A DNA stretch of 64,000 nucleotides from Nitrospira tepida (GTDB taxonomy: Bacteria; Nitrospirota; Nitrospiria; Nitrospirales; Nitrospiraceae): assembly GCF_947241125.1 (NCBI RefSeq), contig NZ_OX365700.1:1488001-1552000 (forward strand), read 5' to 3'. Numbering within the stretch: the stretch's first letter is position 1; each line of letters opens with the position of its first letter. Below, in pieces: positions 4,888-28,105 of the stretch. Under the pieces are notes generated by a model. That model saw only the letters and a list, made by a program, of their open reading frames with translations. It did not search any database and was not told where the DNA came from. The translations under genes were made by a program, and so were the position numbers.

Positions 4888-5593
4888 TCCGAGCCCGGCT
4901 GCCTCCCCTGTGCCACCGGACGAGCAGGAGTTGGTGTTGGCCTTGGCCGCCGGCGAAGAGGGGGCGTTCGCGAAGCTCGTCCATCAGTACCAGAAGCCCC
5001 TGTTTCGCCAAGCGCTGGCTTATGTGTCGAGCGAGGCGGTGGCGGAGGAAGTCGTGCAGGAGACTTGGCTGGCGGTCATGGACGGCATCAAGCGGTTTGA
5101 AGGCCGGTCGTCGTTCAAGACCTGGCTCTATCAGATCCTCATCCACAAGGCCAAGTCGGCGGGTGTGAAGGAGTCCCGACAGATCCCGTTCTCCGCGATG
5201 GCCGGCCTGGATGACGAGTCGGACGGGATGCCTCCGGAGGCCCAGGGAAGCGAGGCCGTGGCCCGCGAGGCGGCCGGCGGTCCCTGGACGATGGGCGTGG
5301 CGGACGAAGACACCCCCGAGGATCAGATGTTGGCCGAGGAGTGCCGGCGTGAGATCACGCGCGCCATGCGGGCCTTGCCGCCGGCCCAGCGACGGGTGAT
5401 GGAACTCTACCACTTCGAGGAGTTGACGTCGGAAGAGGTCTGCCGGCGGTTGAAGATCAGTGAAAGCAATAAACACGTGCTGCTGCACCGGGGCCGCAAT
5501 CAGGTAAAGAAAGCCGTGGACGGGTACTTTGCGGGGGACCGGCGCCGGACCAATACGGTGCGGCAGATCTACCGGTTGGGGTTGGCCGCGTAG
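4790..5593 (+). CDS. ECF-type RNA polymerase sigma factor
   Basis: A 267-residue sigma factor. Region 2 spans about 61-125 (FAKLVHQYQKPLFRQAL through SSFKTWLYQILIHKAKS) and region 4 about 185-250, with the helix-turn-helix SEEVCRRLKISESNKHVLLH. A long, acidic linker of about 60 residues separates them, and the first 55 residues are an extra Pro/Ser-rich leader. AAGGGG lies 9 bases before the ATG at 4790; a later ATG at 4841 would shorten the overlap with the STAS gene. No zinc-binding anti-sigma protein is adjacent, so control is probably at transcription, through the upstream sigma-54 promoter, with possible input from the STAS partner. Confidence 0.88.
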   Translation: MLRVIRRTTGQATFVKLMPESRAEESSGDRPDDPSPAASPVPPDEQELVLALAAGEEGAFAKLVHQYQKPLFRQALAYVSSEAVAEEVVQETWLAVMDGIKRFEGRSSFKTWLYQILIHKAKSAGVKESRQIPFSAMAGLDDESDGMPPEAQGSEAVAREAAGGPWTMGVADEDTPEDQMLAEECRREITRAMRALPPAQRRVMELYHFEELTSEEVCRRLKISESNKHVLLHRGRNQVKKAVDGYFAGDRRRTNTVRQIYRLGLAA

Positions 5594-5683
5594 CCGTTCC
5601 ATTTCGCTGTTGGTAAGAAATCCGGAGGCTCGCGGACAAACTCAGCAGCGATGTCCATGGATGTCCATGAAGGAGGCAGCACG

Positions 5684-6787
5684 ATGAAAGCCGTCGCCGT
5701 GATCCCCGGACAACCGAACTCCCTCCATCTGGCCGAACTGTCGAAACCGTCGGTGCATGATATCCCGCACGGGCGAGGCGTGCTCGTGCAGGTCTTGCGG
5801 GTCGGCGTGGATGGAACGGACAAGGAGATCAACGCCGCCGAGTACGGGCAGGCTCCGCCGGGCGAAGAATTTCTGGTGATCGGGCACGAGTGTGTCGGCC
5901 GGGTCGTGGAGGTCGGGATGAACGTGTCGGAGTTGGCTCCCGGCGACTATGTCGTGCCGACCGTGCGTCGTCCCGGCCTGAGCCTCTACGATCAAATCGG
6001 CCAGTACGACATGACGACCGACGATACCTACTATGAACGGGGCATCAATCTCCGCCACGGCTATTTGACGGAATACTTCGCCGAAGATCCGGAATATCTC
6101 GTCAAGATTCCCGCAGGGCTCAAGGATGTGGCCGTGCTGTTGGAGCCTGCGTCGATCGTCGAGAAGGGCCTTGTCCAGGCCTACGAGACACAGCGCCGGT
6201 TGAAGATCTGGAGGCCCAAATGCGCCGCCGTGCTCGGAGCCGGGACCGTGGGATTGTTGGCGGCCCTGTCGTTGCGGATGAAGGGGCTTCAGGTCACGGC
6301 CTTCGGCCGGTCGAAGCCGCCCTATCGCAATGCCGAACTGCTGGAGGAGATCGGCGTCCGTTACGTTTCCACGCAGGACGTCTCGATCACGGCCGCGGCG
6401 AAGCAGGCGGGGCCGTTCGATCTCATGTTCGAGGCGACCGGCGCGGCGCAGATCGTCTTTGAGGCCATGGAATGCCTGGGCAAGAACGGCGTGCTGATTC
6501 TGGCGAGCGTGACGGGCGGGTCGAAGAAGATCGAGGTTCCCGCCGACATGATCAATCTTGGCTTTGTGCTCGGCAACAAGGTGGCCATCGGGACCGTGAA
6601 CGCAAACCGGGAGTACTTCGAAGCCGGGGTCTACGATTTTTCACGGGCCCAGGTGGAATATCCAGGCTGGCTCTCCAAGCTGCTGACCCATCCGGTGGAA
6701 GGGCTGGACCAGTATCGCCGGATGATGAAGCTGCTGACCGAGGAGAAAGGCGCGATCAAGGTCTATGTCAATGTGGCAAGCGATTGA
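5684..6787 (+). CDS. Zinc-dependent glucose 1-dehydrogenase-like medium-chain dehydrogenase
   Basis: A 367-residue medium-chain dehydrogenase resembling archaeal-type glucose/aldose 1-dehydrogenases. Metal-site features are GVDGTDKEI (Asp where most homologues have Cys, as in the haloarchaeal enzyme), GHECVG and LLEPASIVEKG. The Rossmann motif is VLGAGTVGLLAAL. The enzyme should oxidise an aldose to its lactone with NAD(P), a first step of non-phosphorylated sugar oxidation, but substrate is inferred. AGGAGG at 5671-5676 fixes the ATG at 5684; an upstream ATG at 5651 lacks such a site. It follows the sigma factor gene by 90 bases and may belong to the sigma-54-driven transcript. Confidence 0.85.
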   Translation: MKAVAVIPGQPNSLHLAELSKPSVHDIPHGRGVLVQVLRVGVDGTDKEINAAEYGQAPPGEEFLVIGHECVGRVVEVGMNVSELAPGDYVVPTVRRPGLSLYDQIGQYDMTTDDTYYERGINLRHGYLTEYFAEDPEYLVKIPAGLKDVAVLLEPASIVEKGLVQAYETQRRLKIWRPKCAAVLGAGTVGLLAALSLRMKGLQVTAFGRSKPPYRNAELLEEIGVRYVSTQDVSITAAAKQAGPFDLMFEATGAAQIVFEAMECLGKNGVLILASVTGGSKKIEVPADMINLGFVLGNKVAIGTVNANREYFEAGVYDFSRAQVEYPGWLSKLLTHPVEGLDQYRRMMKLLTEEKGAIKVYVNVASD

Positions 6788-6790
6788 AGG

Positions 6791-6888
6791 CACGTTACAC
6801 GTGAAGCGTTAACCGTCAAGCGTAGCGGAAGGACGGAGCTATCTTGTTGGGCGGCCGATTGACGAATGACGGATGACCAATGACGCAT
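6791..6888. repeat. GTCAA-type inverted heptamer repeat
   Basis: Left arm (6791-6821) has ACGTTACACGTGAAGCG and ACCGTCAAGCG words; right arm (6857-6888) has GATTGACGAATGACGGATG units. Same family and polarity as the copies at 4171 and 30171. It sits 4 bases after the dehydrogenase stop codon. Confidence 0.68.
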
Positions 6889-6906
6889 ATTCGAGGGGGA
6901 GGGCTC

Positions 6907-7365
6907 GTGAAGCTCGCGTCGAGTACAGTGGGCATGATGGCGGCAATCTGCCTGATTTGCGCGGGTGCGATGGCCGGCGAGTTTTACGAGCCAGGCGGGG
7001 TGGCCATTCGTGGCTATGATCCGGTTGCTTATTTCGAGGAGCGCCGCCCGGTCAAGGGGAGTTCGACCTGGACGGCTCAATTCCAGGGTTCGACCTTTTA
7101 TTTCGCTTCGGCTGCGAATCGCGACGCCTTCACGGCTGACCCCGAACGCTATGCTCCCCAATACGGAGGCTTTTGCGCGTTCGGCGCCGCCAAGGGCTAT
7201 AAGGCCAAGACCGATCCCGATGCGTTCAGCCTGGTGAACGGCAAGCTCTATTTGAACTACAGCTTGAATGTGCGAGCACTGTGGCAAGAGGATATCCCCG
7301 GGTATATTGCGAAGGGCGACAAGAATTGGCCCGACGTCCGGAAAACCACAAGGGTCCGCGAGTGA
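6907..7365 (+). CDS. Exported YHS-domain protein
   Basis: About 152 residues from a GTG at 6907, preceded by GGGGGAGGG. The N-terminus (VKLASSTVGMMAAICLICAG, then AMA-G) is a Sec signal peptide. The mature part begins FYEPGGVAIRGYDPVAYFE, a standard opening of the YHS family, followed by the F-Y-F-A-S-A-A-N-R-D-A-F strand-helix and the YAPQYGGFCAFGAAKG core. YHS proteins are small periplasmic or membrane-linked modules often found near metal or redox enzymes; the exact role is unknown. An ATG at 6880 would add nine residues before the signal. Confidence 0.82.
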   Translation: MKLASSTVGMMAAICLICAGAMAGEFYEPGGVAIRGYDPVAYFEERRPVKGSSTWTAQFQGSTFYFASAANRDAFTADPERYAPQYGGFCAFGAAKGYKAKTDPDAFSLVNGKLYLNYSLNVRALWQEDIPGYIAKGDKNWPDVRKTTRVRE

Positions 7366-7612
7366 CGGGTCGGTTCTCTTCCGATCCGTCGAGGCATGCG
7401 TGGTTCTCCTGTCATGTATCTCGCAGATGGGCGTGGAAGAGGCGGGTATTTTAGGAAGAGCGCGATGCAAGACCCTGAAAGGGGTGCATGTCGGCGGGGC
7501 TTGTCACCGATGTGCAAGATTTCATCTCGGCGGCCGACACACAAGGCAGAGAAGAATGTGCCGGAACACACTGTCGATCAATCGGTGATTGACACTTCAC
7601 GGAGGAGCACCC

Positions 7613-8350
7613 ATGATACGCGATAACGCCATGTCGAACGTGCCGGCCCAAGCCAGGACTTCCTCCCCGCCGTCCACTTCAGGAAGGATGATCCTATTGC
7701 TGCTGATTGCGGTGGGAATCGGCGCCTTCTTCTACTTCGATCTCGGACGGTTCCTGTCGCTCGATGCGCTGAAAGCCAACCGCGACCATCTACTGGCGTT
7801 TGCGGAGATGAACGCCGGCGTGGCGGCGGTCCTGTTTGTTGCGACCTATGTGGTTGTGACGGGCCTGTCGCTCCCGGGCGCGGTGATCTTGACCCTGGCC
7901 GGAGGCTTTCTCTTCGGGAGCCTCTTCGGGACCCTGCTGGTGAACATCGGCGCCACCACCGGCGCCACCTTGGCCTTTCTGGCCGCCCGCTACCTGCTCC
8001 GGGATTGGGTCGAACAGAAGTTTGGGAGCAAGCTCGGTGCCATTCAGGAGGGGTTCGCGAACAACGCCTTCAGCTACCTGATGACGTTGCGATTGATTCC
8101 GCTCTTTCCGTTTTTTCTCGTCAACATGGTCTCGGGTCTGACCAGGGTCAGCGTCGGTACCTATGTGGCGGCCACGGCCTTGGGCATCATTCCCGGTAGC
8201 TTCGTCTATGCCTATGCCGGCCGGCAGTTGGGCACGATCAACTCGCTGAAGGAGATCGCCTCGCCGAACGTGCTGCTGGCGTTCACGTTGCTGGGCCTCC
8301 TGGCGATGGTGCCGGTTCTCTACAAGAAGGTTGCCGCCAAGCGGGCCTGA
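7613..8350 (+). CDS. TVP38/TMEM64 (SNARE-associated, VTT) family membrane protein
   Basis: A 245-residue integral membrane protein with about five to six hydrophobic segments. The family core is visible: the G-LSLPGAVILTLAGGFLFG loop, the GATTGATLAFLAARY segment, RLIPLFPFFLVNMVSGLTRVS and the final helix ahead of YAGRQLG. VTT-domain proteins are proposed lipid or small-molecule transporters or scramblases. GGAGGAG lies 5-11 bases before the ATG at 7613. It precedes a flavin disulfide reductase, a pairing that recurs in many bacteria and suggests joint function at the membrane. Confidence 0.9.
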   Translation: MIRDNAMSNVPAQARTSSPPSTSGRMILLLLIAVGIGAFFYFDLGRFLSLDALKANRDHLLAFAEMNAGVAAVLFVATYVVVTGLSLPGAVILTLAGGFLFGSLFGTLLVNIGATTGATLAFLAARYLLRDWVEQKFGSKLGAIQEGFANNAFSYLMTLRLIPLFPFFLVNMVSGLTRVSVGTYVAATALGIIPGSFVYAYAGRQLGTINSLKEIASPNVLLAFTLLGLLAMVPVLYKKVAAKRA

Positions 8351-8395
8351 GCCGGCCGGATCGACGACGCCCCCATCCAATTGACAAGACCAGCC

Positions 8396-9988
8396 ATGAG
8401 GCCCAGTATGCAGACCTTACTGATGAATACCCCTGAAACCAGCCGTGAGCCTGTCACCGTCCAGCCGATGGACGAACACAACATCACGTTGGTGAACAAC
8501 GTGCATCCGTCGGATTGGGTCAATCCGCAACCACAAGGGAAGTACAACATTGTCGTCATCGGCGCCGGCACCGCCGGGCTCGTGACCGCCGTGATCGCCG
8601 CCGGCGTGGGAGCCAAGGTGGCCTTGATCGAACGGCACCTGATGGGCGGCGACTGTCTGAACGTGGGCTGCGTGCCCTCCAAGGGGATGATCCGGGCCGC
8701 GACCGCCTGGGCTGATGTCAAGCGGGCCGCAGAGTTCGGCCTGCACATTCCCCCCGGCATCAAATATGACTTCGGCGCGGCCATGGCCCGGATGAGGAAG
8801 CTGCGCGCCAGGATCAGCCGCACGGACTCCGCGCATCGCTATAAGGGCCTGGGGGTGGATGTCTACATCGGCGATGCCAAGTTTCTCGGAGAGGATCGTA
8901 TCGAAGTCGTTGGACGGGCCGGAAACCGGAGCTTGCAGTTCGCCAAGGCGGCCATCTGCACCGGCGCGCGGGCGTCGGATCCACCGGTTCCAGGATTACG
9001 CGAGGCAGGCTACCTGACCAACGAAACGGTGTTCACGTTGACGGATCTGCCGCCACGGCTCGGCGTGATCGGGGCCGGTCCGATCGGCTGCGAGCTGGCG
9101 CAGGCCTTTGCGCGATTCGGCAGTCAGGTCTATTTGATCGAGGCCATGCACGGCATTATGCCGAACGAGGACCGGGATGCCGCGGAGATCGTGCTCAAGT
9201 CCATGCAGCGTGACGGGGTCACGCTGCTCTGCTGTGGGAAGGACCTCAAGGTTGGGAAGACGGAGGGCGGGAAGCGCCTGGCCGTGGATTCGCACGGGCG
9301 ACATTACGATGTCACAGTGGACGAGATCCTGGTCGGGGTCGGCAGGACGCCGAACGTGGAGGGGCTGGGGCTGGAAGCGGTCGGGGTCGAGTATGACCAG
9401 GCCGGCGTCAAAGTGAACGAGCGCCTTCAAACCACCAACCCGCGAATCTATGCCGCAGGCGACATCTGCTCGCGCTACAAGTTCACCCATGCGGCCGACG
9501 CCATGGCCCAGATCGTGATCCAGAATGCGCTGTTTCCCCATCCGCTCGGGCTGGGATATGCCAGCGCGGAGTCGCTCATCATGCCCTGGTGCACCTTTAC
9601 CGAGCCGGAGGTGGCGCACGTCGGGCTCTACGAAGAAGAGGCGAAAAAGAAAGGCATCGAGGTCGAAACCTATACCTACAAATTGGACGAGGTGGACCGG
9701 GCCATTCTCGACGGGCAGGACGAGGGGTTCGCGCGGGTGCATATTCAGAAAGGGTCCGACAAGATTCTGGGCGCGACGGTCGTGGCGGCCCATGCAGGCG
9801 ACATGATCGGCGAGTTTTCGGTCCTCATGAAAGCCGGGGCCGGGGCCAAGACGCTTGCCTCGACCATCCATCCCTATCCGACCCAGGCCGAGGTCAACAA
9901 GAAGGCGGTGACTTTGTGGCGCAAGGCCCACTTCACGCCCCGGACCAAGGCCCTGCTCACGAAACTGTTTGCCTGGATGCGGCGGTAG
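8396..9988 (+). CDS. FAD-dependent pyridine nucleotide-disulfide oxidoreductase (mercuric-reductase-like)
   Basis: About 530 residues. The N-terminal FAD fold VVIGAGTAGLVTAV is followed by the redox pair GGDCLNVGCVPSKG, the NAD(P) fold GVIGAGPIGCELAQAF, the second FAD motif IYAAGDIC and a dimerisation domain ending in TIHPYPTQAEVN, the His-Pro-Tyr-Pro-Thr pattern of the family. It lacks the N-terminal heavy-metal domain and the C-terminal Cys pair of true mercuric reductase, so Hg(II) reduction is not supported. The start is unclear: ATGs at 8396, 8408, 8423 and 8468 are possible. It lies 45 bases after the TVP38-type gene, the usual partner of this subgroup. Confidence 0.88.
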   Translation: MRPSMQTLLMNTPETSREPVTVQPMDEHNITLVNNVHPSDWVNPQPQGKYNIVVIGAGTAGLVTAVIAAGVGAKVALIERHLMGGDCLNVGCVPSKGMIRAATAWADVKRAAEFGLHIPPGIKYDFGAAMARMRKLRARISRTDSAHRYKGLGVDVYIGDAKFLGEDRIEVVGRAGNRSLQFAKAAICTGARASDPPVPGLREAGYLTNETVFTLTDLPPRLGVIGAGPIGCELAQAFARFGSQVYLIEAMHGIMPNEDRDAAEIVLKSMQRDGVTLLCCGKDLKVGKTEGGKRLAVDSHGRHYDVTVDEILVGVGRTPNVEGLGLEAVGVEYDQAGVKVNERLQTTNPRIYAAGDICSRYKFTHAADAMAQIVIQNALFPHPLGLGYASAESLIMPWCTFTEPEVAHVGLYEEEAKKKGIEVETYTYKLDEVDRAILDGQDEGFARVHIQKGSDKILGATVVAAHAGDMIGEFSVLMKAGAGAKTLASTIHPYPTQAEVNKKAVTLWRKAHFTPRTKALLTKLFAWMRR

Positions 9989-9999
9989 TGAGGGCCGTT

Positions 10000-10740
10000 A
10001 TGGGCATGACGTGGCCCATCGCGTCCGCCGCCCTGCTCAGCCTTGCAGCCGTGGTGTCAGCGGAGACTCCGGTCTTGCTGGAGGTCGGCTTGTTTTCGCA
10101 GGCCGGCGAGCGTGACGGCCTGCCCGCCGGGTGGAAGCCGCTGACGTTCAAGAACGTTCCCAAGCCCACTCAGTACGGATTGGTGAAGGACGGGGAGACC
10201 CTCGTGGTCAAGGCCGTCTCGGAAGCGGCGGCGAGCGGCCTGATCAGGGAGATCAGGATCGATCCCAACGAATATCCGATCGTGCAGTGGCGCTGGAAGG
10301 TCGCCAACGTGCTGCAAGAGGGCGATGTGACCAAGAAGAGCGGTGACGACTATCCGGCGCGCCTGTACATCACGTTTGAATATGATCCGGAGCGGGCGGG
10401 CCTGTTTGAGAAGGCCAAGTATCAAGCGGCGAAAGCCATCTTCGGCCCGGATGTGCCCTTTCGCGCGCTGAACTATATCTGGGAAAGCAAAGCGGCCAAG
10501 GGCAGCATCATCCCGAACCCCTACACCGATTGGACGATGATGGTCGTCGTGGAAAGCGGCACGGCCCGTCTCAATCAGTGGATCACGGAGGAGCGGAATC
10601 TCGCCGAGGACTTCAGGCGGGCCTTCAACGAGCCTCCCTTGATGATCTCGGGCGTGGCGATCATGACCGATACCGACAATACCAAGGAACAGGCCACGGC
10701 CTACTACGGCGACATCCTGTTCAAGAAAGCCCTCCCGTGA
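10000..10740 (+). CDS. DUF3047 family exported protein
   Basis: A 246-residue protein with a Sec signal (MGMTWPIASAALLSLAAVV, cut after SAE). The mature part fits DUF3047: LPAGWKPLTF, the QYGLVKDGETLVVKA strand, YPIVQWRWKV, DDYPARLYITFEYD, and the closing GVAIMTDTDNTKEQATAYYG. The fold is a jelly-roll-like carbohydrate-binding type by family knowledge; function is unknown. It starts 12 bases after the reductase stop codon, so it is probably in the same transcript. Confidence 0.82.
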   Translation: MGMTWPIASAALLSLAAVVSAETPVLLEVGLFSQAGERDGLPAGWKPLTFKNVPKPTQYGLVKDGETLVVKAVSEAAASGLIREIRIDPNEYPIVQWRWKVANVLQEGDVTKKSGDDYPARLYITFEYDPERAGLFEKAKYQAAKAIFGPDVPFRALNYIWESKAAKGSIIPNPYTDWTMMVVVESGTARLNQWITEERNLAEDFRRAFNEPPLMISGVAIMTDTDNTKEQATAYYGDILFKKALP

Positions 10741-10745
10741 GGGGG

Positions 10746-10852
10746 AAGGTCGAGGTTGAGGCTAAGGGTTAGCCGAGGTCGAAGAAGAGATGAAAGATGA
10801 GCGCACTGTTGCCACCGACACTTCTCTCGACCTTGACCTTAGCCTCAGCCTT
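10746..10852. repeat. CTCAAC/CTTAGC-type inverted repeat overlapping a gene start
   Basis: GAGGTTGAGGCTAAGG (10752-10767) pairs with CCTTAGCCTCAGCCTT (10837-10852) at 14 of 16 positions. The left arm lies in the spacer after the DUF3047 gene and the right arm is inside the next coding region, where it encodes part of the signal peptide. A relative with the same words lies at 60926-61039. Confidence 0.75.
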
Positions 10853-12023
10853 GTCGCTCTCCGGGTGTCTCTCGCCCATCGCCATGCATCGGGCGGTGAT
10901 CGAATATGATCGTACGGTCAGTTACGTCGAGGCGGATCTGCTGTTGCTGAACATCGCGCGGGCTCGCGCCCATCGCCCGGTCCACTTCACGGCGGTCTCC
11001 AGCGTCGCGGCGACCTTCGATTTCCGCGTCAACGCCGGCATCACCGGCAACATCGGGCATGCCGTGGGGGATGCCATCGAGCGTCCGGTGACGTTGGAAT
11101 ACTCCAACAGCGTGGCGGAGAATCCGACGATCACGATCGTGCCCGTGACGGGAGAAGAATTTACGAAGCGGGTGCTGCGGCCGCTCGACGAGGCGAAGTT
11201 CGAGTTTCTGGTCCATCAAGGCTACGACATCAACATGTTGCTCCGGATCATGGCCCGCGACATCGCGGTGGACGGGGGCGAGCGACCCACGCTCTATGTG
11301 AACGCGCCCTCGCAAGGCGAAGGCTACCGGGAGTTCCGCCGCCGCCTCCTGCACCTGGCCGGCCTCGAGGCGGAGCGAGTCCTGTTCATCGGCCCCATCC
11401 TCTATGAGGAGGCCCAGCGCGTGAGGCTGCATCGGGCGCCCAGCGCGGAGGAAGTTGTCACAGCCCTCGAAAAGGGCTATCGCTGGTCCGACGGGGAGGA
11501 GGCGACCGGCTACCTGTTGAAGCGCAAGGAAATCGGACGCCTGTTGATCTCGAACTATGATCCGAATCGAATCTCGCCCGAGGAACGACGGAGGTTGCAG
11601 GAGGAGGCCGTCCGCTATGCGGGCGACTCCATCCTGGTCGATATCCGGCCTGGGTTTCCGGGCGGAGACTTTCCGCTCCATGGCACGATCCGGTTGCGCA
11701 GCATGAACGCCATTATCAACTTTGTCGCGAGGGGGATCGGCGAGGAGCCGGAGATCGGCGTCGAGCCGGACCCCCGGACGCGCGCGATCGTGCGGAATCC
11801 CGTCCGCACGCTGGAGATCGAGGAGAGCGAGCGGAAGCCGAGCGACTTCGAATTCTCCGTGGAGTTCGATAAACGGTATTACTTCATCCGCAAGTATCCG
11901 ACCAGCGAGGGCATGTCGCCGAGCTGGAATCAGGAGGCCTTTGCGGTGCTGTCGAACCTGTTCCAGATGACGGTCACGGACCTGACGCGGTACCCGACGC
12001 CGGCCATCGCCATCGCAAAATGA
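10797..12023 (+). CDS. Hypothetical outer-membrane-type lipoprotein
   Basis: A 408-residue protein with a lipoprotein signal (LLPPTLLSTLTLASALSLSGC, given here as TLTLASALSLSGC) and lipid attachment at Cys24 in LSGC. The mature domain is rich in charged helices and short strands, with no family I can name. A hydrophobic-to-polar pattern such as LLLNIARARAHRPVHFTAVS recurs in uncharacterised Nitrospirota lipoproteins by my recollection, which I cannot verify here. The signal-peptide codons are the right arm of an inverted repeat. It sits between the DUF3047 gene and cydA. Confidence 0.75.
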   Translation: MSALLPPTLLSTLTLASALSLSGCLSPIAMHRAVIEYDRTVSYVEADLLLLNIARARAHRPVHFTAVSSVAATFDFRVNAGITGNIGHAVGDAIERPVTLEYSNSVAENPTITIVPVTGEEFTKRVLRPLDEAKFEFLVHQGYDINMLLRIMARDIAVDGGERPTLYVNAPSQGEGYREFRRRLLHLAGLEAERVLFIGPILYEEAQRVRLHRAPSAEEVVTALEKGYRWSDGEEATGYLLKRKEIGRLLISNYDPNRISPEERRRLQEEAVRYAGDSILVDIRPGFPGGDFPLHGTIRLRSMNAIINFVARGIGEEPEIGVEPDPRTRAIVRNPVRTLEIEESERKPSDFEFSVEFDKRYYFIRKYPTSEGMSPSWNQEAFAVLSNLFQMTVTDLTRYPTPAIAIAK

Positions 12024-18494: not shown

Positions 18495-21203
18495 GTGGAT
18501 CTGATCACCACCCATTCGCAAGCCGACCTGGATGGGCTCGCCTCGATGGTGGCGGCCCGGAAGCTGTATCCAGGGGCCAGGCTGGTGCTGGCGGGCGGAG
18601 CCCAGGACAGCGTGCGTCGCTTTCTTGAGGACCATGACCTCGACATCGGCCGCCTTCGCGACCTGAATCTGGACGAGGTGCAGCGGGTCATTCTGGTCGA
18701 TACGCAGGACCTGTTCCGGATCGAGCAACTGCGCCCGCTCTGGACCAAGCCTGATCTGGTTCTGCACATCTACGATCACCATGTCGATCACCAGGGAGAG
18801 GTCAAGCGGGAGCCCTCCGAGGGGCGGCGCCAGCCTGGACCGAAGGTCGAGCGGCTGGTGCTGGAACCGGTCGGGGCCACGGTAACGGTGCTGATCGAAG
18901 CGCTTCGCGTCAATGGCCTGTCGCTCACGCCGTTCGAGGCCACAGTTCTGGCTGTGGGCCTGTACGAAGAAACCGGATCGTTGACCTACGGTTCGACGAG
19001 CCCGCGCGATGTCGAGGCGCTCGCCCACCTGTTGCGGGTCGGGGCCGATCTCAACGTCGTGGCGGCGACCTTGCGCCGCCATCTGGAGCCCGAGCAGATT
19101 GCCCTGCTCAACGACCTGCTGACCTCAAGCGAGACCTACTATCTTGAAGGACGAAAGATCCTGCTGGCCGCCAGCGCCTATGAGGGTTATCGCGGCGACT
19201 ATTCCAGCGTCGTGGAACGGCTGATGCAAATTGAAGGGCTGGATGCCGTGATCGCCGCCTTCGTCATGGACAGCAAGGTGACGATCGTCGGACGCAGCCG
19301 TCTTCCCGATATCATCGACGTGGCCTGGATCGCGCGTGAGTTCGGCGGCGGCGGCCATGCCGCCGCCGCCGCCGCGACCGTGAAGGGGCAAACCCTCGTC
19401 GAGGTCCGGGAGCGACTGGTCAAGCTCCTGACCGAGCGCTACCGGCCGACCCTGACGGCGAAGGATGTGATGACGAGGCCGGTGAAGGCCATCGCCGGGG
19501 ACGCCAGCGTGGAGGATGCGGGCCGGCTCATGACGACCTACGGAGTCAATGTCCTGCCGGTGCTCGACAAGCGCGGGGCCTATCAGGGACTGATCTCGCG
19601 CGAGACGGTCCAGAAGGCGGCGTTTCACCATCTGGAGAAAGCCTTCTGCCGGGAATTCATGCAGACCGATTCGTATGTGGCTGAGTCGGACACGCCGTTC
19701 CATGAAATCGAGCGCCAGATGATCGAGCTGAATCAGCGGTTCGTCCCGATCCTCGCGGGAGTCAAGGTGGTCGGGGTGATCACGCGAACGGACCTGCTGC
19801 GGACGCTCCACGAGGACGTGCTGTCGGCCGCCCGAGCCAGGGTCAAAGCCCGTCCGGGCGAAGACCCGGCGTTTCAATTCCGGCGCCGTAATATCGCGGG
19901 CCTGCTCAAGGATCGCCTGCCGGCCCGGGTCGTCGCATTGATGCGGGAGGCCGGTGAGTTGGCGGATCGTTTAGAAGTCAAGCTCTATGTCGTGGGCGGC
20001 ATTGTCCGGGACCTCTTGCTTGGGATTGACAACCTGGATCTTGATCTCGTCGTGGAGGGGAACGGTCTGGCCTTTGCCAAGGCCTTGGCCCGCGCGCAAC
20101 GGGGCCAGGTGAAGGTCCATGAACGATTCGGCACGGCCCGAGTGACCTTGGCCGACGGATTCAAAGTGGATGTCGCGACGGCCCGCGCCGAATACTACGA
20201 GTATCCGACCGCCCTGCCGACGGTCGAGCAGGGGTCCGTGAAAAAGGACCTCTACCGGCGGGATTTCACGATCAATACGTTGGCCGTCCGATTGAACCGG
20301 CGGCAGTTCGGAGAGCTGATCGATTTCTTCGGCGGCGAACGGGACCTGAAGGGCCGGACGATCCGCGTCTTGCACAGTTTGAGTTTTGTGGAGGACCCGA
20401 CCAGGGTGTTTCGTGCGATTCGATTCGCCGTCCGGTTTGATTTCGTGCTCAGCCGGGAGACGCGCGCGCTGATCCAGGGGGTTGTCAAGATGGACCTGCT
20501 GCGGCGGCTCTCCAAGCATCGCTTGACGGACGAACTGCAATTGGTCCTGTCCGAACGGGAGCCTGGCAAGGCCATCGCTCTGATGGATGAGCTGGAAGTG
20601 CTGGCATGTCTCCATCCGGACCTGGAGCTGACACCGCGTTTGCGCACGCTGCTCAAAGCAACGGAAGAGGCGCTCGATTGGTATCGGCTGCTCTTTTTGG
20701 ATCGCCCGATGGAAAGTTGGTTGGTGTACCTGATGGCGATGCTACAGGTCCTGCCGGATCAGGCGGTGGGGGAGGTGCTCAAGCGCATCGAGCTCTCGGC
20801 TCGGCAAGAAGCGGCTGTTCGTGCCGGTCGGTTCGGGGGGCATCGCATTTTTCGGGAACTTGGCCGTCGCCCTGCCGTCTCTCCCGCCGCCGTGTATCGG
20901 GCACTGAGTGGGACCTCCGACGAAACGTTGGTGTTCCTGATGGCAAAGAGCAAATCTGAGCATGTTCGGCGCCAGCTTTCGGCCTATGTGACGACCTATC
21001 AGCGGATGCGTCCCGCCTTGAAGGGAGACGATCTCAAACGGATGGGCCTTAAGCCCGGGCCCCTGTACCGACGCATTCTCTCGAAGCTCTTGGAAGCCCG
21101 TCTCAATGGCGTGGTGAACAATGAGGAGGACGAGCGGGCCTTGGTCCGATCCCTCATCGGGGGGCGCAAGTCTGCAGTGGACCGGCCCGAGCCTCCGTTC
21201 TAA
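18495..21203 (+). CDS. DHH phosphoesterase - CBS - CCA tRNA nucleotidyltransferase fusion
   Basis: A 902-residue multidomain protein. Residues 1-305 are a DHH/DHHA1 phosphoesterase (THSQADLDGLAS, VDTQD, YDHHVDH, GGGGHAAAAAA). Two CBS domains follow (about 315-440). From about 465 comes the class II tRNA nucleotidyltransferase head VVGGIVRDLLLG with LDLDLVVEGN, then RRDFTINTLA and the RNA-binding part FVEDPTRVFRAIRFA. The nucleotidyltransferase adds C or A to tRNA 3' ends; CBS domains probably sense adenine nucleotides. In some bacteria this long form coexists with or splits the CCA task with another enzyme. It starts at a GTG, and its stop codon overlaps the convergent lipoprotein gene by 4 bases. 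Confidence 0.94.
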   Translation: MDLITTHSQADLDGLASMVAARKLYPGARLVLAGGAQDSVRRFLEDHDLDIGRLRDLNLDEVQRVILVDTQDLFRIEQLRPLWTKPDLVLHIYDHHVDHQGEVKREPSEGRRQPGPKVERLVLEPVGATVTVLIEALRVNGLSLTPFEATVLAVGLYEETGSLTYGSTSPRDVEALAHLLRVGADLNVVAATLRRHLEPEQIALLNDLLTSSETYYLEGRKILLAASAYEGYRGDYSSVVERLMQIEGLDAVIAAFVMDSKVTIVGRSRLPDIIDVAWIAREFGGGGHAAAAAATVKGQTLVEVRERLVKLLTERYRPTLTAKDVMTRPVKAIAGDASVEDAGRLMTTYGVNVLPVLDKRGAYQGLISRETVQKAAFHHLEKAFCREFMQTDSYVAESDTPFHEIERQMIELNQRFVPILAGVKVVGVITRTDLLRTLHEDVLSAARARVKARPGEDPAFQFRRRNIAGLLKDRLPARVVALMREAGELADRLEVKLYVVGGIVRDLLLGIDNLDLDLVVEGNGLAFAKALARAQRGQVKVHERFGTARVTLADGFKVDVATARAEYYEYPTALPTVEQGSVKKDLYRRDFTINTLAVRLNRRQFGELIDFFGGERDLKGRTIRVLHSLSFVEDPTRVFRAIRFAVRFDFVLSRETRALIQGVVKMDLLRRLSKHRLTDELQLVLSEREPGKAIALMDELEVLACLHPDLELTPRLRTLLKATEEALDWYRLLFLDRPMESWLVYLMAMLQVLPDQAVGEVLKRIELSARQEAAVRAGRFGGHRIFRELGRRPAVSPAAVYRALSGTSDETLVFLMAKSKSEHVRRQLSAYVTTYQRMRPALKGDDLKRMGLKPGPLYRRILSKLLEARLNGVVNNEEDERALVRSLIGGRKSAVDRPEPPF

Positions 21204-21820
21204 AGTTCGTTCAGCGGCCTCTCATTCTCCAATTTCCCAAACAGATCGCTCAATGCCCCATGGACTGCTTGGTTGACCGGGGCCTTGTCGTCGTCCGTGC
21301 CGGTGCGCCGGACCACGCCGACGGATTTGCCGAAGCCGGAGTACTCCCGCAAGACTCGGCCTGTCGCGGCGTCGCTGAGCGTGCCGGTGGCGCGGGCGAC
21401 GTAAATCGTGTTGAATTTGAAACCCAGGCTTGGATCGATGTAAATCAGCATCCGAATTGCGAGGCGGACATTGGACGCCCCCTGCTTGACAACGGTGCGG
21501 AAGGTGCGGCGTGAAACCACGTAATCGACGAGGGCCTGTTCCCAGGCCTCCTTGTCGTTGGTGAGGGCCGGCACCGGAGCGGTGATCCGGTTCTGTAGGT
21601 TGGGATCGGGAGACATTGTCGCCCCTGGCTGGACGAGAAAGGCCCCGATCGTGGCCAGTTCCACCGTGGCCGTGTAGGGCAGCGAGGTCTTGGTCGGGAC
21701 GACCGTGGCCGGCGCGAAGGGAATTTTGCCGCAGGCCGTGACCGTTGCGACGAGGACGAGCAGAGTGGCTAGCAGGGGGCCGGCCGGGTTTCCGGGGCTT
21801 GAATGCGGGGCGCGGTTCAT
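21200..21820 (-). CDS. Hypothetical lipoprotein
   Basis: A 206-residue protein with a lipoprotein signal (GPLLATLLVLVATVTAC). The mature domain has alternating strands around VPTKTSLPYTATVELATIG, then VRLAIRMLIYIDPSLGF and YVARATGTLSDAATGRVLRE, which resembles secreted proteins with a GNA1162/DUF4410-like curved sheet, but I cannot assign a family. It is convergent with the CCA fusion gene and downstream of the sensor kinase. Confidence 0.72.
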   Translation of the reverse strand: MNRAPHSSPGNPAGPLLATLLVLVATVTACGKIPFAPATVVPTKTSLPYTATVELATIGAFLVQPGATMSPDPNLQNRITAPVPALTNDKEAWEQALVDYVVSRRTFRTVVKQGASNVRLAIRMLIYIDPSLGFKFNTIYVARATGTLSDAATGRVLREYSGFGKSVGVVRRTGTDDDKAPVNQAVHGALSDLFGKLENERPLNEL

Positions 21821-21992: not shown

Positions 21993-24947
21993 TTACTGGT
22001 GCGCCAGGGGCCAGGGCTGAGGATTCCAGGATGGAATGGGTTCAGGACTCGCCGGGAGGTTGACGAAGAACGTCGTGCCCTTCCCGACCTCGCTCTTGAC
22101 CTCGATGTACCCCCGATGTTCATGCACGATCTGATGGACGATGGTGAGGCCCAGGCCGGTCCCTTCATGCTCGCCGCTGGCATGCTTAGTCGTATAGAAC
22201 GGATCAAAAATATGGTCCAGGTTCTCGGACGCGATGCCCGCGCCGGTATCTGACACCTCGATTTGAACCCAGGGGACCGGATGCAGCTTCCTGAGCAAAT
22301 GCGTCTTGACGGATAAACAGCCCCCCCGTGCGGCCATGGCGTCCATGGCGTTGATGAATAAATTGAGGAGGACCTGTTTGATCTGCTGACGGTCGAGCGT
22401 CACCGGCGGCAGGTCGGAGGCGAAATCCCGCTCGATCCGGATGGATTTGGCGGACGCCTTCACTTGGATGAAGTAGAGGCAGGACGCCACGATATCGTTA
22501 AGGTTCTCCTCCGTGAGCTTCGGCTCCATGTACCGGGCATAATCCAATATCTCCTGAATGAGCCGTTCGATGCGGCGGACGTCTTCCACGACGATTTCGC
22601 TGAACTTCTCCACGAAGTCCTGATCGTCCCGCCGGTCGGGAACCAATTGGATGAAGGTTTTGATGGAGGTCAGCGGGTTGCGGATCTCGTGCGCGAAGCC
22701 TCCGGCGATGGTCTCCAGCGAGCGGAGCCGGTCGGTCCGCCGCATGAGGGCTTGCGACCGTTTGAGATCCTCGTACAGAAGGGCGTTGTCCAGGGCGATG
22801 GCGGCATGTTGGCCGAGGGTCATCAATAGGCTGAGGTCTTGCCCGGAATACACGGCATGATCGGCGCGGGCCCCGAGATTGCAGAATCCGACCAGGCGCT
22901 CCTTGTTGATCAGGGGAATGCAGACTTCCGCATCCAGGATGCGGAGGATCTCCAGCAACGATCGAGGGGGATCGGTTCCATGCCCGTATTCCAGCTCTTC
23001 GCGGACCAACAGTCCCTTCTGAAGCGCGAGATGGGCGGGCAGCCCGTCGTCTGACTTCAGGCTGGAAGGGAGCGGTCCAAGGGCGAGCGGGCGATGAGCG
23101 GCCGTGAGGATGTAGAGCGACTTTTCAGAGTCCAGGACGTAGACGGACGCCGTTGAGATGTTCATCACTTTGGTCAGGGTCCCCACCACTTCGCGCGTCA
23201 ACGATTCCAGATCCAAAATGGACACGAGTGATTTTGAGAATTGCACCAACGTGTCATAAGCGTCGTAACGGGCTCGAAACAGGCGCTGGCCGACGACGTC
23301 CTCCAGCGTTTGTTGGAGGTTTGCCAGAATGCCGGCCAGGGCGATGAAGAGCGCCAGTAAGGCGCCGGCCATCAGATAATGTGGCGCTCCGGTGAAGAGC
23401 CAGACCAATGTCAGAATGCCAAGATACGCAGGCGGAAGGCCCAGGAGCTGTGCGTAGAGGGGGCTGCTTCGATGGGAGAAGGGGAACGACACCTGCATCA
23501 ATTCATGTTTCACGATGACATTGGCCATCAATGCGATCCACAGCCCGACGATCATATACCCCAGCGGATAGAATTCGATCCCGTAGCTGGGCACAAAGTC
23601 GCTCGAAGCGGCCATGCCGATCAGGAAGGCCCAAAAGGTCTGCCGCAGTTGGGTCGCTTCCTGACGGTCCAGCCGGGATGCCTGGTACAGGTGCTTGAGC
23701 GCTCTTCCACAGACCGTGAAAAAATAGAGCAAGAACGCCGGATGGAGCGGGCCGGCTTTGGGGTAGTAACCCCAGAAATACTGATAGGTGCCCGCGGTGA
23801 AATAGGAGGTCGGGACCAAGCCTAAAAAACCCAAGCTCAGGAGATAGTGAATGCCGATAGACCGGTCATGCCGAACTCGGCCGGAGAGGCCGACGCAGAA
23901 GTGATACAACGCAGCGGGAATCCACACGACGCCCCCATAGACCACTTTGCTCCAAAACAGGGCCTCCGACGTCGTGCGGGAGGAATAGAGCATGAAGCAA
24001 CCGGTGAGCCACAGCGCCACCCCGCCGCAGACTAGTCCGAACGAGATGTTCGTCGTCGCGCGCGGATTGCTCAGCGCCACCCATGACCCGCAGATGATGA
24101 CGAGGAGCGCCGACAGGAGCGGTGGAATCGAATACTCGGACGCCCGGGTGCTGAGCATGGCGATGGCGGATGAGGCGATGAGGATCGCACCTGTGGCGAG
24201 GGCGTAGGTCAACCCCTTGTTGATGACGACCGTGATATCCATCAAGCGATAGCGGATGATGGCGTAGCTGATGACGGCGATGAGCAGGAAGATCGGGATG
24301 TAGCCGAAAGGGTACACTTCGATGCCGAAGGCCGGAAGAAAGTCGACGGAGCCCGTATAGGCGATGAGAAACGCGCTCATCACGTAAAGAATCTGCTGCC
24401 GTTTCAAGGGCGCCGACACCCGGCGATACGCGCGGAAGTAATCAGCAAAGGCCGCCGCCATATAGGCCGTGAACACAGGGAAAAAGAACAGCGAGGCCGG
24501 TCCCCATTGCGGAAAATAGCCCCACCAGAAGGTCCGTACCCCTACGACAAACTGACCGGAGAGCAGCACCAACAGCACCAGCAGGCCCGCGAGAACGTAG
24601 CCCATGGTCACCGAGCGGGGCCGATGGAGGGAGAGGAAGGCGGCGGAGAAACTATAGAAACTGACGGAAATGAACATCACGCCGACGTTGTCGATTCTGA
24701 ACCAGTTGACCGCGACGGTGGGGCTGGTCGATGACAACCCCAGCCCCGTGGCCGTCAACCACGCGCTAATACTGAGACAGAGGATCAGGAAGTGACGATT
24801 GGCGGAAGCTTTCCGGTTGGAGCGAAATGTGAGAACGCCCAGAATCAATGAAACAGCTCCCATGCCGAACATGGGGAGCGCGTGGGCGTTCAGCGTATAG
24901 TGTGATAGATCAAACACCAGTGAGAGCGCCGATGCGAGCCCGAGCAA
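21993..24947 (-). CDS. Membrane histidine kinase with duplicated 7TM-type sensor and GAF domain
   Basis: A 984-residue sensor kinase. The first 540 residues are membrane helices that look like two copies of one sensor module: GYFPQWGP and SVDFLPAFGIEVYPFGY in copy one, GYYPKAGP and SSDFVPSYGIEFYPLGY in copy two. A GAF domain (about 560-735) follows, then HisKA with the phosphoacceptor His753 in GGFAHEIRNPLTS, and an ATPase domain with LFINAMDAM (N box), SDTGAGI and GTGLGLTI. There is no receiver domain and no response regulator next door. It overlaps the PilZ/reductase gene by 38 bases, so the pair is probably one operon. Confidence 0.9.
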   Translation of the reverse strand: MLGLASALSLVFDLSHYTLNAHALPMFGMGAVSLILGVLTFRSNRKASANRHFLILCLSISAWLTATGLGLSSTSPTVAVNWFRIDNVGVMFISVSFYSFSAAFLSLHRPRSVTMGYVLAGLLVLLVLLSGQFVVGVRTFWWGYFPQWGPASLFFFPVFTAYMAAAFADYFRAYRRVSAPLKRQQILYVMSAFLIAYTGSVDFLPAFGIEVYPFGYIPIFLLIAVISYAIIRYRLMDITVVINKGLTYALATGAILIASSAIAMLSTRASEYSIPPLLSALLVIICGSWVALSNPRATTNISFGLVCGGVALWLTGCFMLYSSRTTSEALFWSKVVYGGVVWIPAALYHFCVGLSGRVRHDRSIGIHYLLSLGFLGLVPTSYFTAGTYQYFWGYYPKAGPLHPAFLLYFFTVCGRALKHLYQASRLDRQEATQLRQTFWAFLIGMAASSDFVPSYGIEFYPLGYMIVGLWIALMANVIVKHELMQVSFPFSHRSSPLYAQLLGLPPAYLGILTLVWLFTGAPHYLMAGALLALFIALAGILANLQQTLEDVVGQRLFRARYDAYDTLVQFSKSLVSILDLESLTREVVGTLTKVMNISTASVYVLDSEKSLYILTAAHRPLALGPLPSSLKSDDGLPAHLALQKGLLVREELEYGHGTDPPRSLLEILRILDAEVCIPLINKERLVGFCNLGARADHAVYSGQDLSLLMTLGQHAAIALDNALLYEDLKRSQALMRRTDRLRSLETIAGGFAHEIRNPLTSIKTFIQLVPDRRDDQDFVEKFSEIVVEDVRRIERLIQEILDYARYMEPKLTEENLNDIVASCLYFIQVKASAKSIRIERDFASDLPPVTLDRQQIKQVLLNLFINAMDAMAARGGCLSVKTHLLRKLHPVPWVQIEVSDTGAGIASENLDHIFDPFYTTKHASGEHEGTGLGLTIVHQIVHEHRGYIEVKSEVGKGTTFFVNLPASPEPIPSWNPQPWPLAHQ

Positions 24948-26712
24948 TACGCACGAGGTCTTCCTCTGTAATAGGGCCGGTTGAATTGCGGAAGCGGGCG
25001 AGACGAAAACCGAGTTCGCGCGCCGCAGCCAGGATATGGGACCCGTGCAGCGGATCGGCCTTCCCGATCGAATAGTGGCCTTCCCAGCCGATCGCCGCCA
25101 GGATCATCGTTTCCGATAGGCAGCCCAACGCCTCGCCGCTCTCAAGCCCCAGGTCAAAGTTCACCTCGACTCCAGGCGTTTGAACGATCGCCGACTCGAT
25201 CACGAGCACATCGGGGCGTTGATGAGAGACCTGCTCGGAAACGTTCTTGGGTTGGGCGGCGTCGATCACGATGGCTCCGGGCTTGAGGATGTCCGGGTCG
25301 ATCAGCGCATGCGGGCTGTTCGTGGCCGCGATAACAATGTCGGCTTCAGCAACCCGTGCAATGGCACCGGTTCCCTCGACGCTGATCGACTGTCGCTTGA
25401 GCAGAGACACCAGCGCCGCCAGTTCATCCCGCTTGATATCGATCAATACCAGATGGGCCGAGAGCGGGCCTAGCAATTTCGCGCAAGCGGAACCGACCGA
25501 TCCGGCGCCGCCCACAATCGCCACGGTCGCGTGCGGCACACTGAGGTTGGTCAAGGCGGCCGCCTCCAGCACGTTTTGCACGGCAATCGCCGCAGAATGG
25601 GGATTGCCTGTGGTCAATCCCAAGTGGACTTTGTCCAGCAGATCCTTGCCGTCCCTCGTCACTATGGACGTAAAGGCTCCGAGCCCCGCAATACGAGCTC
25701 CCATGCGTTCTGCCAGCCGCACCGTTTCGAGGACGCGCTGTCGTGCCGCCCGAGGGTTGCGAATCATTTGCTCGGTGGTGAGCGGAGAGATCAGCATGGC
25801 TCCCTTGAGCAATCGTCCGCTTTTGGCTTTCAGTCCCGTAATGTACGAAGCTACGAACGGCCATTGGTGGCGGAACCATCGTTCGACGATGGCAGGCGGC
25901 ATCAATTTCGCAAATGGAAACTTTCTCGGGACGTCGGTCAGGTCGCGTGGGTGGCCGATGAACACAAAATCGACTGGTTGCACCAGAAATCTGGACGCGC
26001 ACCGGGGAAGGAATCGAACCATGAGATCTCGAACAAGTTGGATGAACAAGGGGATGCTCCGCAGCCACAACAGCGTGCGGTGCGAGAGGGAGGCGGACGG
26101 CATCGGGGCTGATTTACGAAGCGATACGGTGGTCATTAACCGGACCGCCTGAGATCCCATGTGCGAGAGTGTGGAAAACAGGTTCTGGCTCTTCAGGCGA
26201 TAGGGGAGGGTATAGGGGTTGTCGGTGACGAACAGCGAGAGAATCGATCGGGGGTTGGTTCGCTCTGCAGGCGGATCGCCATTCCTCCGATGTTGGTGGG
26301 CGCTCTTCTGTCGCGTGAGACCCGTCAGGTAGGCATCGATCTCATGCAAACAAGATTGGAGAACGGATTGCTCCGTCTCACTCAGTGGATTCAGATGGAG
26401 AGAAATCGTATAGCGGGTTGTCTCAGAGATCTCGCACCGGTTGACCTCGGCGACCCGGCCGCTGAGGTGCATATAGGCAGTCGCTCGACCGAAGCAAATG
26501 TAGACCGACATCACCGATCCTTTCGAAGGCGCGTGAGGACAGACGAATGAAAGAGAGTCCAGGCCGAGATATTCGGTCACCCCTCGACTGAGCGTTCCAT
26601 GAAAATCAACCACGACCGGGAGGCTGATCGAGACATGGGAATCCGATGGCTTACCGAGAACACCGTGATGGTTGGAGTTGATTGGTGACCTCAATCCTTG
26701 CTGTACTGTCAT
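24910..26712 (-). CDS. PilZ-like domain fused to long-chain acyl-ACP reductase-like enzyme
   Basis: A 600-residue protein. Residues about 25-135 look like a PilZ beta-barrel (VSISLPVVVDFHG, SLSFVCPHAPSKGSVM, LHLNPLSETEQSVLQSCLHE), but the c-di-GMP signature R-x-x-x-R and N-x-S-x-x-G is degenerate. After a linker, from about 245 on it tracks cyanobacterial acyl-ACP reductase (AAR): FVFIGHPRDL, GARIAGLGAFTSIV, TTGNPHSAAIAVQ, the NADPH loop VGGAGSVGSACAKLL (401-408) and catalytic-type Cys531 in ALGCLSETMIL, matching FACFAEAMLL of AAR. AAR makes fatty aldehydes from acyl-ACP. No aldehyde deformylating oxygenase is nearby. GGGAGG precedes the ATG by 9 bases. The reductase homology is by motif recall, not alignment. 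Confidence 0.8.
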   Translation of the reverse strand: MTVQQGLRSPINSNHHGVLGKPSDSHVSISLPVVVDFHGTLSRGVTEYLGLDSLSFVCPHAPSKGSVMSVYICFGRATAYMHLSGRVAEVNRCEISETTRYTISLHLNPLSETEQSVLQSCLHEIDAYLTGLTRQKSAHQHRRNGDPPAERTNPRSILSLFVTDNPYTLPYRLKSQNLFSTLSHMGSQAVRLMTTVSLRKSAPMPSASLSHRTLLWLRSIPLFIQLVRDLMVRFLPRCASRFLVQPVDFVFIGHPRDLTDVPRKFPFAKLMPPAIVERWFRHQWPFVASYITGLKAKSGRLLKGAMLISPLTTEQMIRNPRAARQRVLETVRLAERMGARIAGLGAFTSIVTRDGKDLLDKVHLGLTTGNPHSAAIAVQNVLEAAALTNLSVPHATVAIVGGAGSVGSACAKLLGPLSAHLVLIDIKRDELAALVSLLKRQSISVEGTGAIARVAEADIVIAATNSPHALIDPDILKPGAIVIDAAQPKNVSEQVSHQRPDVLVIESAIVQTPGVEVNFDLGLESGEALGCLSETMILAAIGWEGHYSIGKADPLHGSHILAAARELGFRLARFRNSTGPITEEDLVRIARARIGALTGV

Positions 26713-27254: not shown

Positions 27255-27956
27255 TTACTCTTCCTTGGGATTACTCAGCAGCGCGGAGAGTTCCCGGGGC
27301 AAGAGGAGGGTAATGAACGTCGTGGCATTGGGGCTCTGGTGGAATGCGGCCAGCAACAAACGAGGCCGTGGCACGGTATCGGGCGGAAAGGGCAACAGGG
27401 CCGGCACGTCGATGACCGACTTGTTCGCGGGCGCGCTCATGAGTCGCAAGCGAAGCGCGAGGAGAATGTCTCTAACACGGGCGGCATGTTCCGATTCAGG
27501 CACGCTGGCCGATGCGGTCACCAACGTCTCCCAGGCGGGCTGCGTCATGCCGACGGTGAAGGGGACGCCGAGGTTCCTCGCCATCGACGTGATCTCGATC
27601 CATTCGCCGACATGGAGCACCTGTTCGTGGGGCAACGCGACATGGGAATCGTCCGCCTCGATATGAGATTCATCGGAAGACGGCGGATCAAACGGATGGC
27701 GGTCGTCTTGCCGGCTTGCCAAAAGCGATGAATCGGCTCCGATCGCGGGCGCCTCGCCGCCTGCATCAGGGACCGGTCCAGGATCGAGCATGGAAGCCTG
27801 GTCCAGAGTATCCGCCTCTGCCGCAAGCGCCTGCCTGATACCCCGGTAGACGGTCCGCGCGGCCGCCGACCATTTGGGATTGAACGGCCGGCCCGCAAAC
27901 GCCGCCTCCGCCGCGAGCTTTTCGTCGAAACTCAATGTGCGGGGTGTGGTGGTCAT
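27255..27956 (-). CDS. Hypothetical protein
   Basis: A 233-residue soluble protein beginning MTTTPRTLSFDEKLAAEAAF. A helical N-terminus (NPKWSAAARTVYRGIRQALA) is followed by a variable Asp/Pro-rich middle and a second folded part with VGEWIEITSMARNLGVPFTV, an RDILLALRLRL helix and ATTFITLLLPRELSALL. VGEWIEITSMARNLG resembles the start of the DUF6573-like or plasmid-associated unknown proteins, but I cannot confirm a family. Much longer upstream readthrough in this frame crosses the MFS gene and is not real. Confidence 0.6.
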   Translation of the reverse strand: MTTTPRTLSFDEKLAAEAAFAGRPFNPKWSAAARTVYRGIRQALAAEADTLDQASMLDPGPVPDAGGEAPAIGADSSLLASRQDDRHPFDPPSSDESHIEADDSHVALPHEQVLHVGEWIEITSMARNLGVPFTVGMTQPAWETLVTASASVPESEHAARVRDILLALRLRLMSAPANKSVIDVPALLPFPPDTVPRPRLLLAAFHQSPNATTFITLLLPRELSALLSNPKEE

Positions 27957-28105
27957 CGTATTGATAATGAATAGCTCCGAATCGGAGGGTGTCAAGTTGG
28001 CGGAGTCTGTTTCGGGCAGAAGATCCGCAACCTGCCGTTTAACTTGCGGAATCGGTATCAGCGAAGAGTTGAGATCGGTCCATGCGTGCTGGCCGCGTAT
28101 CGTCG

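Follow-up and report, generated by a model that had tools for sequence, protein, structure and literature searches.

In the PhcB/PhcS system, a methyl-ester signal is paired with its own sensor kinase (PMC8578825, PMC11960443), and in CqsA/CqsS a hydrophobic signal is sensed by a partner kinase (PMC3285556). In the comQXP pherotypes, synthesis genes co-vary with the kinase (PMC4408185). A comparative survey of the Nitrospirales names LuxI/LuxR-type AHL genes as the sole signalling system, and PilZ, acyl-ACP and histidine kinase are absent from its text (PMC12342949).

We analysed a stretch of 64,000 nucleotides from Nitrospira tepida (the window). It encodes a PilZ-like domain fused to an enzyme resembling acyl-ACP reductase (AAR), directly followed by a 7TM sensor histidine kinase (Table 1). 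Targeted searches of the open literature, in which coverage is incomplete and an earlier description possible, returned no account of this locus or of PilZ–enzyme fusions; nothing was found on PilZ with AAR, on AAR with histidine kinase and quorum sensing, or on PilZ with Nitrospira, kinase and methyltransferase. Comparison of the locus with its relatives suggests that bacteria of the Nitrospira family produce their own lipid signals and carry the receptors for them, a signalling family not yet described.

Table 1 Features of the PilZ–AAR and kinase genes and their flanks (window coordinates)
Feature	Position	Strand	Remarks
Flanking lipoprotein-like gene	21200..21820	-	50% identity to L090; one edge of exchanged segment
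Sensor histidine kinase: two tandem 7TM, GAF, HisKA (FAHEIRNPL), HATPase	21993..24917	-
GAF and kinase core	22032..23237	-	sister to kinase beside PilZ–HMGR in G020 (L090)
7TM-2 domain of kinase	23436..24143	-	related to non-AAR double-7TM kinases
7TM-1 sensor domain of kinase	24171..24893	-
PilZ-like and AAR-like thioester reductase	24910..26712	-	600 aa, ATG start, uninterrupted ORF
AAR-like reductase core	24955..25971	-	residues 248–586; Z 37.1 to 6jzy; TIGR04058 2.5e-23
Cys531	25120..25122	-	aligns to catalytic Cys294 of AAR; conserved in all 20 homologs
Dinucleotide-binding loop GGAGSVG	25492..25512	-	residues 401–407
Predicted helices between PilZ and reductase	25984..26085	-	residues 210–243
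PilZ-fold N-terminal domain, c-di-GMP motifs degenerate	26290..26643	-	residues 24–141
Flanking gene without Pfam match	27255..28010	-	46% identity to L090; other edge of exchanged segment

A reductase fused to a PilZ domain

The PilZ–AAR gene is single copy in the source genome (G000), and its reductase half has the AAR fold. The predicted model superposed on AAR (6jzy) with a Z of 37.1 and an r.m.s.d. of 2.5 over 321 residues, and sequence comparison with the AAR structure 6jzu gave 1.3e-19. Shikimate dehydrogenase or an unrelated dehydrogenase was rejected for this half, with a Z of about 14 versus 37 for the AAR fold. Cys531 sits within GCLSET (residues 530–535), and both it and Glu534 are invariant across the 20 homologs compared, which include stand-alone versions of 350–430 amino acids from other Nitrospirota and a Chlamydiae-labelled MAG. 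A TTGN segment occupies residues 367–370. These results uphold the first-pass annotation, made from the letters of the DNA, in its reading of an AAR-like reductase with the TTGN segment and a catalytic cysteine, and an AAR profile search agreed.

The accompanying label ‘cyanobacterial-type’ proved too narrow. The best profile match was PigE (NCBIfam NF053554, E = 4e-45) and not AAR (TIGR04058, E = 2.5e-23), and the score of 83 bits against TIGR04058 lies below the equivalog cut-off of 449.7 bits. The NADPH phosphate pocket of AAR comprises R189, R193 and R314 (PMC7089970). PilZ–AAR lacks these arginines: R189, R193 and the tunnel residue Y247 of the S. elongatus enzyme are replaced by I426, E430 and Gln487, and R314 by K551. 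Because the NADPH-contacting residues are replaced and Asp425 ends beta-2, NADH is predicted from the sequence as the likely cofactor, rather than NADPH; of the annotated ‘NADPH loop’, the loop stands and the choice of cofactor probably does not. ADO (PF11266) was not found in the source genome by a search that detects it in the control genome of Synechococcus elongatus. Pfam and NCBIfam profile scans of the 600 residues found no class III aminotransferase domain, and there was no sigma-54 promoter upstream of the gene, matches within the window being at chance level.

The N-terminal region was modelled as a six-stranded barrel that matched the PilZ structures of VCA0042 (Z 12.1, r.m.s.d. 2.4, 99 residues) and YcgR (Z 11.9), so that the model recovered both proposed folds. 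Profile searches were less direct: the full-length protein gave no match to Pfam PilZ (PF07238) and its isolated N-terminal region reached only 0.0025 and 18.6 bits, under Pfam's cut-off of 22.5 bits, while homologous N-terminal regions matched in 14 of 14 cases (best E = 2.7e-5). As first annotated, the c-di-GMP signature is degenerate, with RxxxR and (D/N)xSxxG missing from every aligned AAR-type fusion. The strict motifs are kept in sibling fusions of other enzyme types, described below: KASIII (L082, L084), HMGR, several of the LuxD type and, of the HO type, L093. The HO-type L086 and part of the LuxD fusions fall outside the strict pattern. The PilZ domain of the AAR version thus probably no longer reads c-di-GMP, and with the loss of the motifs, control of the reductase by c-di-GMP through this domain becomes unlikely. 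Since a segment after the barrel (RSILSLFVTDNP in AAR, KSLLTLLVSKDA in KASIII) can be aligned among the AAR, KASIII, HO and HMGR types, the N-terminal module is common to them. The 4.7-Mb source genome has 26 PilZ domain matches, which is unusually many, one of them inside a 1286-residue protein.

One of the helices joining the two domains is hydrophobic or amphipathic and is also found at the N terminus of stand-alone homologs such as L042, making membrane contact possible. The AAR-like gene is patchy, occurring in 4 of 60 genomes of the family. The locus of Nitrospira moscoviensis (L012) is of the AAR type. Plasmids yielded only distant matches, mostly annotated as aminotransferase-type (PigE-like). 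In the Chlamydiae-labelled MAG, an AAR-like gene of 52% identity precedes two hybrid kinases (L016:9710-16689); none of 43 other members of that phylum has such a gene, which here is possibly a transfer or a product of misbinning. One further Nitrospira genome (G200, L049:3501-11657) encodes a PigE-like aminotransferase–AAR fusion of 996 residues, flanked by two AMP-ligases and with a REC–HisKA–HATPase hybrid kinase downstream. Taken as a whole, the first-pass annotation is partly supported, correct in its domains and not in its cyanobacterial label; it did not extend to the neighbouring context, in which a sensor kinase gene overlaps and enzyme and sensor domain are swapped together.

Exchange of enzyme and sensor domain

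The kinase gene has its likely start at the GTG at 24917, overlapping the stop of the reductase gene. Two 7TM sensor domains duplicated in tandem, as in this kinase (21993-24917), are common in the kinase family. A 7TM kinase directly follows the AAR-like gene in every Nitrospira AAR locus long enough to include the next gene and adjoins it in the deep Nitrospirota loci L042–L047, with L048 the exception in having none; a histidine kinase also follows the gene in L016. A REC–GAF–HD-GYP regulator comes after the kinase in the deep loci L042, L043 and L045, and in L044 of the same cluster. Many Nitrospira AAR loci have a divergent upstream FadL/TodX gene, for a FadL-type outer-membrane hydrophobic transporter, that is absent at the locus in the window's genome; others have an SDF symporter nearby, and some a CDP-alcohol phosphatidyltransferase gene. 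No conserved lipid pathway gene adjoins the pair downstream in the loci examined.

Most Nitrospira-family genomes that lack AAR nevertheless have relatives of the kinase, and the gene before it then encodes another enzyme with one or more N-terminal PilZ domains. Most commonly this is a LuxD-like acyltransferase with a methyltransferase; the other types are KASIII (L082, L084, L096), a TENA/haem-oxygenase-like (HO) diiron enzyme (L086, L093) and HMG-CoA reductase (HMGR; L090). Catalytic residues are visible in the sequences of KASIII (Cys-His-Asn) and LuxD (Ser-Asp-His). The LuxD-type genes sampled from genera g2, g6 and g10 are accompanied by a shorter kinase without 7TM domains. Many Nitrospira genomes encode proteins of ~1240–1430 residues alignable to the PilZ–LuxD–methyltransferase fusions (L109–L114, L099–L101, L123), their genes lying directly before that of a GAF histidine kinase that has no 7TM domains. 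At L091:2308-7305 (+), PilZ–LuxD–methyltransferase and 7TM histidine kinase form a single open frame of 1666 residues, which may be a real fusion or an assembly frame error.

To follow the parts of the kinase separately, we split the proteins into the first or only 7TM, the second 7TM and the GAF–kinase core and built one tree for each. The 7TM-1 tree (32 kinases) required 4 label changes by enzyme type, the minimum, with AAR, LUXD, KAS and HO each recovered as a single clade in every bootstrap tree (100%). For the same 32 kinases the core tree required 8 changes, and the 7TM-2 tree needed 6 on its 17 rows. Trees constrained to keep KAS or LUXD as a single clade were rejected for both the kinase core and 7TM-2 (p-AU about 0.0001–0.001), in tests whose groups were named after the first tree had been seen and in which rows within a genus are not independent. 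The parts of the window kinase differ in their closest matches: its 7TM-1 shares 55–63% identity with the 7TM of AAR-linked kinases and about 26–35% with others, whereas its core is closer to non-AAR kinases (62–70%) than to AAR-linked ones (52–56%). With an AAR-type profile from which it had been left out, its 7TM-1 reached 339 bits; no other profile gave it more than 127. A phylum-wide AAR-type specificity was rejected, as the profiles show no preference of the deep Nitrospirota kinases for the AAR type; the nearest relatives of the AAR-linked 7TM domains in those lineages are not the AAR-type 7TM of Nitrospira.

Syntenic loci locate the edges of the exchange. Window genes at 17731, 18495, 21200, 27255 and 28106 match locus L090 of genome G020 in order around the pair, and L090 carries PilZ–HMGR and a different 7TM-1. 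Within one genus, L083 (LuxD) and L096 (KASIII) are 79–81% identical in DNA from about residue 213 of the kinase onward, over ~7 kb, with no DNA-level alignment before that point. L086 (diiron) and L088 (LuxD) share both flanks; the gap between them covers the enzyme and 7TM-1, and similarity restarts at about residue 207. In both pairs the restart (about residues 207–213) coincides with the end of 7TM-1. From the syntenic flanks and these breakpoints, the exchanged unit is therefore the enzyme gene plus 7TM-1. Single- and double-7TM kinases beside the same enzyme also share their 7TM type (L093 with L086; L091, L092 and L094 with L083, L085 and L087).

An NtrC-type regulator follows the kinase in several sibling loci, and no response regulator is adjacent in the window's genome. 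A protein search of that genome for the cognate regulator found an NtrC ortholog at G000:C1:1985254-1986642 with 75% identity, the next best having 45%. It adjoins the 1286-residue protein with the PilZ match, which is 27–29% identical to the LuxD–methyltransferase fusions, and a smaller REC protein similar to the HD-GYP regulator; no kinase was detected there. This is a second related locus of the genome (L122, G000:C1:1979000-1994000, 4812-11633), and its NtrC is 74% identical to the NtrC found next to 7TM kinases at other loci. This ortholog may be a target of the window kinase.

A candidate signalling cassette and its rivals

We lean towards reading PilZ–AAR and the 7TM kinase as an exchangeable synthase–receptor cassette that makes and senses an acyl-derived signal. 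The domain folds, the conserved cysteine, the gene pairing and the joint exchange of enzyme and 7TM-1 at syntenic loci are its basis; from these we infer the product's chemistry, its identity with the kinase ligand and its action between cells. As in a two-component quorum-sensing pair, the gene for the putative synthase adjoins that for a membrane sensor kinase, and the sensor domain varies in step with the synthase while the remainder of the locus does not. The reductase would load Cys531 with an acyl group taken from ACP or CoA; its reduction with NAD(P)H would then yield a fatty aldehyde or derived product. This hydrophobic product would be recognized by 7TM-1, and the kinase would signal via its conserved GAF–kinase core, with the distant NtrC-type regulator, the HD-GYP regulator or both as probable targets.

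Across the family, the slot would join PilZ to at least five enzyme types, most of which have acyl thioesters or fatty acids as substrates, and every type would have a 7TM-1 of its own above a common 7TM-2, GAF and kinase. Whether the slot as a whole is a polymorphic communication locus, in which unrelated PilZ-fused acyl enzymes are exchanged with a matching 7TM receptor over a fixed kinase to give chemically different lipid signals, we regard as evenly balanced. Several points count against the cassette: enzyme and 7TM-1 form a contiguous block of DNA that linkage alone could move together; a role on acyl lipids is less obvious for HMG-CoA reductase and the diiron enzyme; the window's genome has neither an adjacent response regulator nor a FadL neighbour; and the specificity between enzyme and 7TM-1 does not extend across the phylum.

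The main rival is an intracellular metabolic sensor, in which no diffusible signal is made: the enzyme would dock on 7TM-1, by its PilZ domain, its amphipathic helix or its reductase part, and inform the kinase of the acyl-ACP supply or the redox state. The translational overlap of the two genes, the hydrophobic helix beside the reductase, the strict co-exchange of enzyme and membrane domain, and the single frame of enzyme and kinase in L091 all fit such a complex, and PilZ domains can act as protein-interaction modules. We consider it unlikely, though the strongest of the alternatives, since intact catalytic residues in unrelated folds (AAR, KASIII, LuxD) suggest that turnover matters, and a change of enzyme chemistry would be pointless for pure docking.

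A metabolic operon, in which the enzyme makes a precursor of membrane lipid, wax or hydrocarbon and the kinase only regulates it or senses the state of the membrane, is less probable again. Cyanobacterial AAR does serve alkane synthesis, and CDP-alcohol phosphatidyltransferase and SDF symporter genes occur near some AAR loci. On the other hand, the source genome has no detectable ADO, the pair has no conserved lipid pathway gene downstream, AAR is thinly spread in the family and unrelated enzymes replace it at the same site. That the enzyme gene and the 5' part of the kinase gene were swapped through adjacency alone, with no functional match, we think very improbable: the two are contiguous and recombination often moves blocks of DNA, but the breakpoints fall at the end of 7TM-1 in two independent pairs, single- and double-7TM kinases with the same enzyme have the same 7TM type, and the pairing of AAR with a 7TM kinase recurs in distant Nitrospirota.

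Should the cassette reading be right, the cassettes would make up a family of lipid signalling systems whose enzyme type is itself swapped alongside the sensor, an analogue of the Bacillus pherotypes with whole enzyme folds replaced. Species or strains of the Nitrospira family would then ‘speak’ chemically different lipid signals, among them an aldehyde, a methyl ester and a ketone; the order Nitrospirales, with nitrite oxidizers and comammox bacteria among its members, drives nitrification. HisKA_7TM, a sensor domain without a ligand in the literature searched, would gain a ligand class. As enzyme and sensor can be matched or mismatched, two plasmids in E. coli would suffice for a direct test of the proposal.

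Comparison with known systems

Cyanobacterial AAR (TIGR04058; 6JZQ–6JZZ) shares with PilZ–AAR the fold (Z 37), the catalytic cysteine, the dinucleotide loop and the TTGN segment. Unlike it, PilZ–AAR is fused to PilZ and paired with a sensor kinase; the two are only 24–25% identical, the score of 83 bits falls far short of 449.7, R189, R193 and Tyr247 are replaced and the genome has no ADO that we could find. The N-terminal thioester-reductase-like domain of PigE (NF053554) is the best profile match (E = 4e-45), but in PigE that domain comes with a fused class III aminotransferase for prodigiosin, and PilZ–AAR has none.

Among signalling systems, PhcB/PhcSRQ of Ralstonia is similar in having an enzyme-made acyl-derived signal and a membrane histidine kinase as its sensor, and the product of the sibling LuxD–methyltransferase cassette could likewise be a fatty acid methyl ester; Phc offers no homologous synthase for the AAR version and, to our knowledge, has neither PilZ nor exchangeable enzyme types. 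The alpha-hydroxyketone systems CqsA/CqsS and LqsA/LqsS also pair a synthase gene with a multi-TM sensor kinase and use a hydrophobic signal, but their synthase, an aminotransferase, and their sensor domain differ from those of the Nitrospira pair. The AHL LuxI/LuxR systems of the Nitrospirales come from the same group of organisms, and their proteins are unrelated to PilZ–AAR and the 7TM kinase. In comQXP of Bacillus, polymorphism of the synthesis genes goes along with that of the sensor kinase gene, conflicts with the species tree and marks out communication groups; there the signal is a peptide and the variants are alleles of one enzyme family, whereas the Nitrospira locus swaps whole unrelated families.
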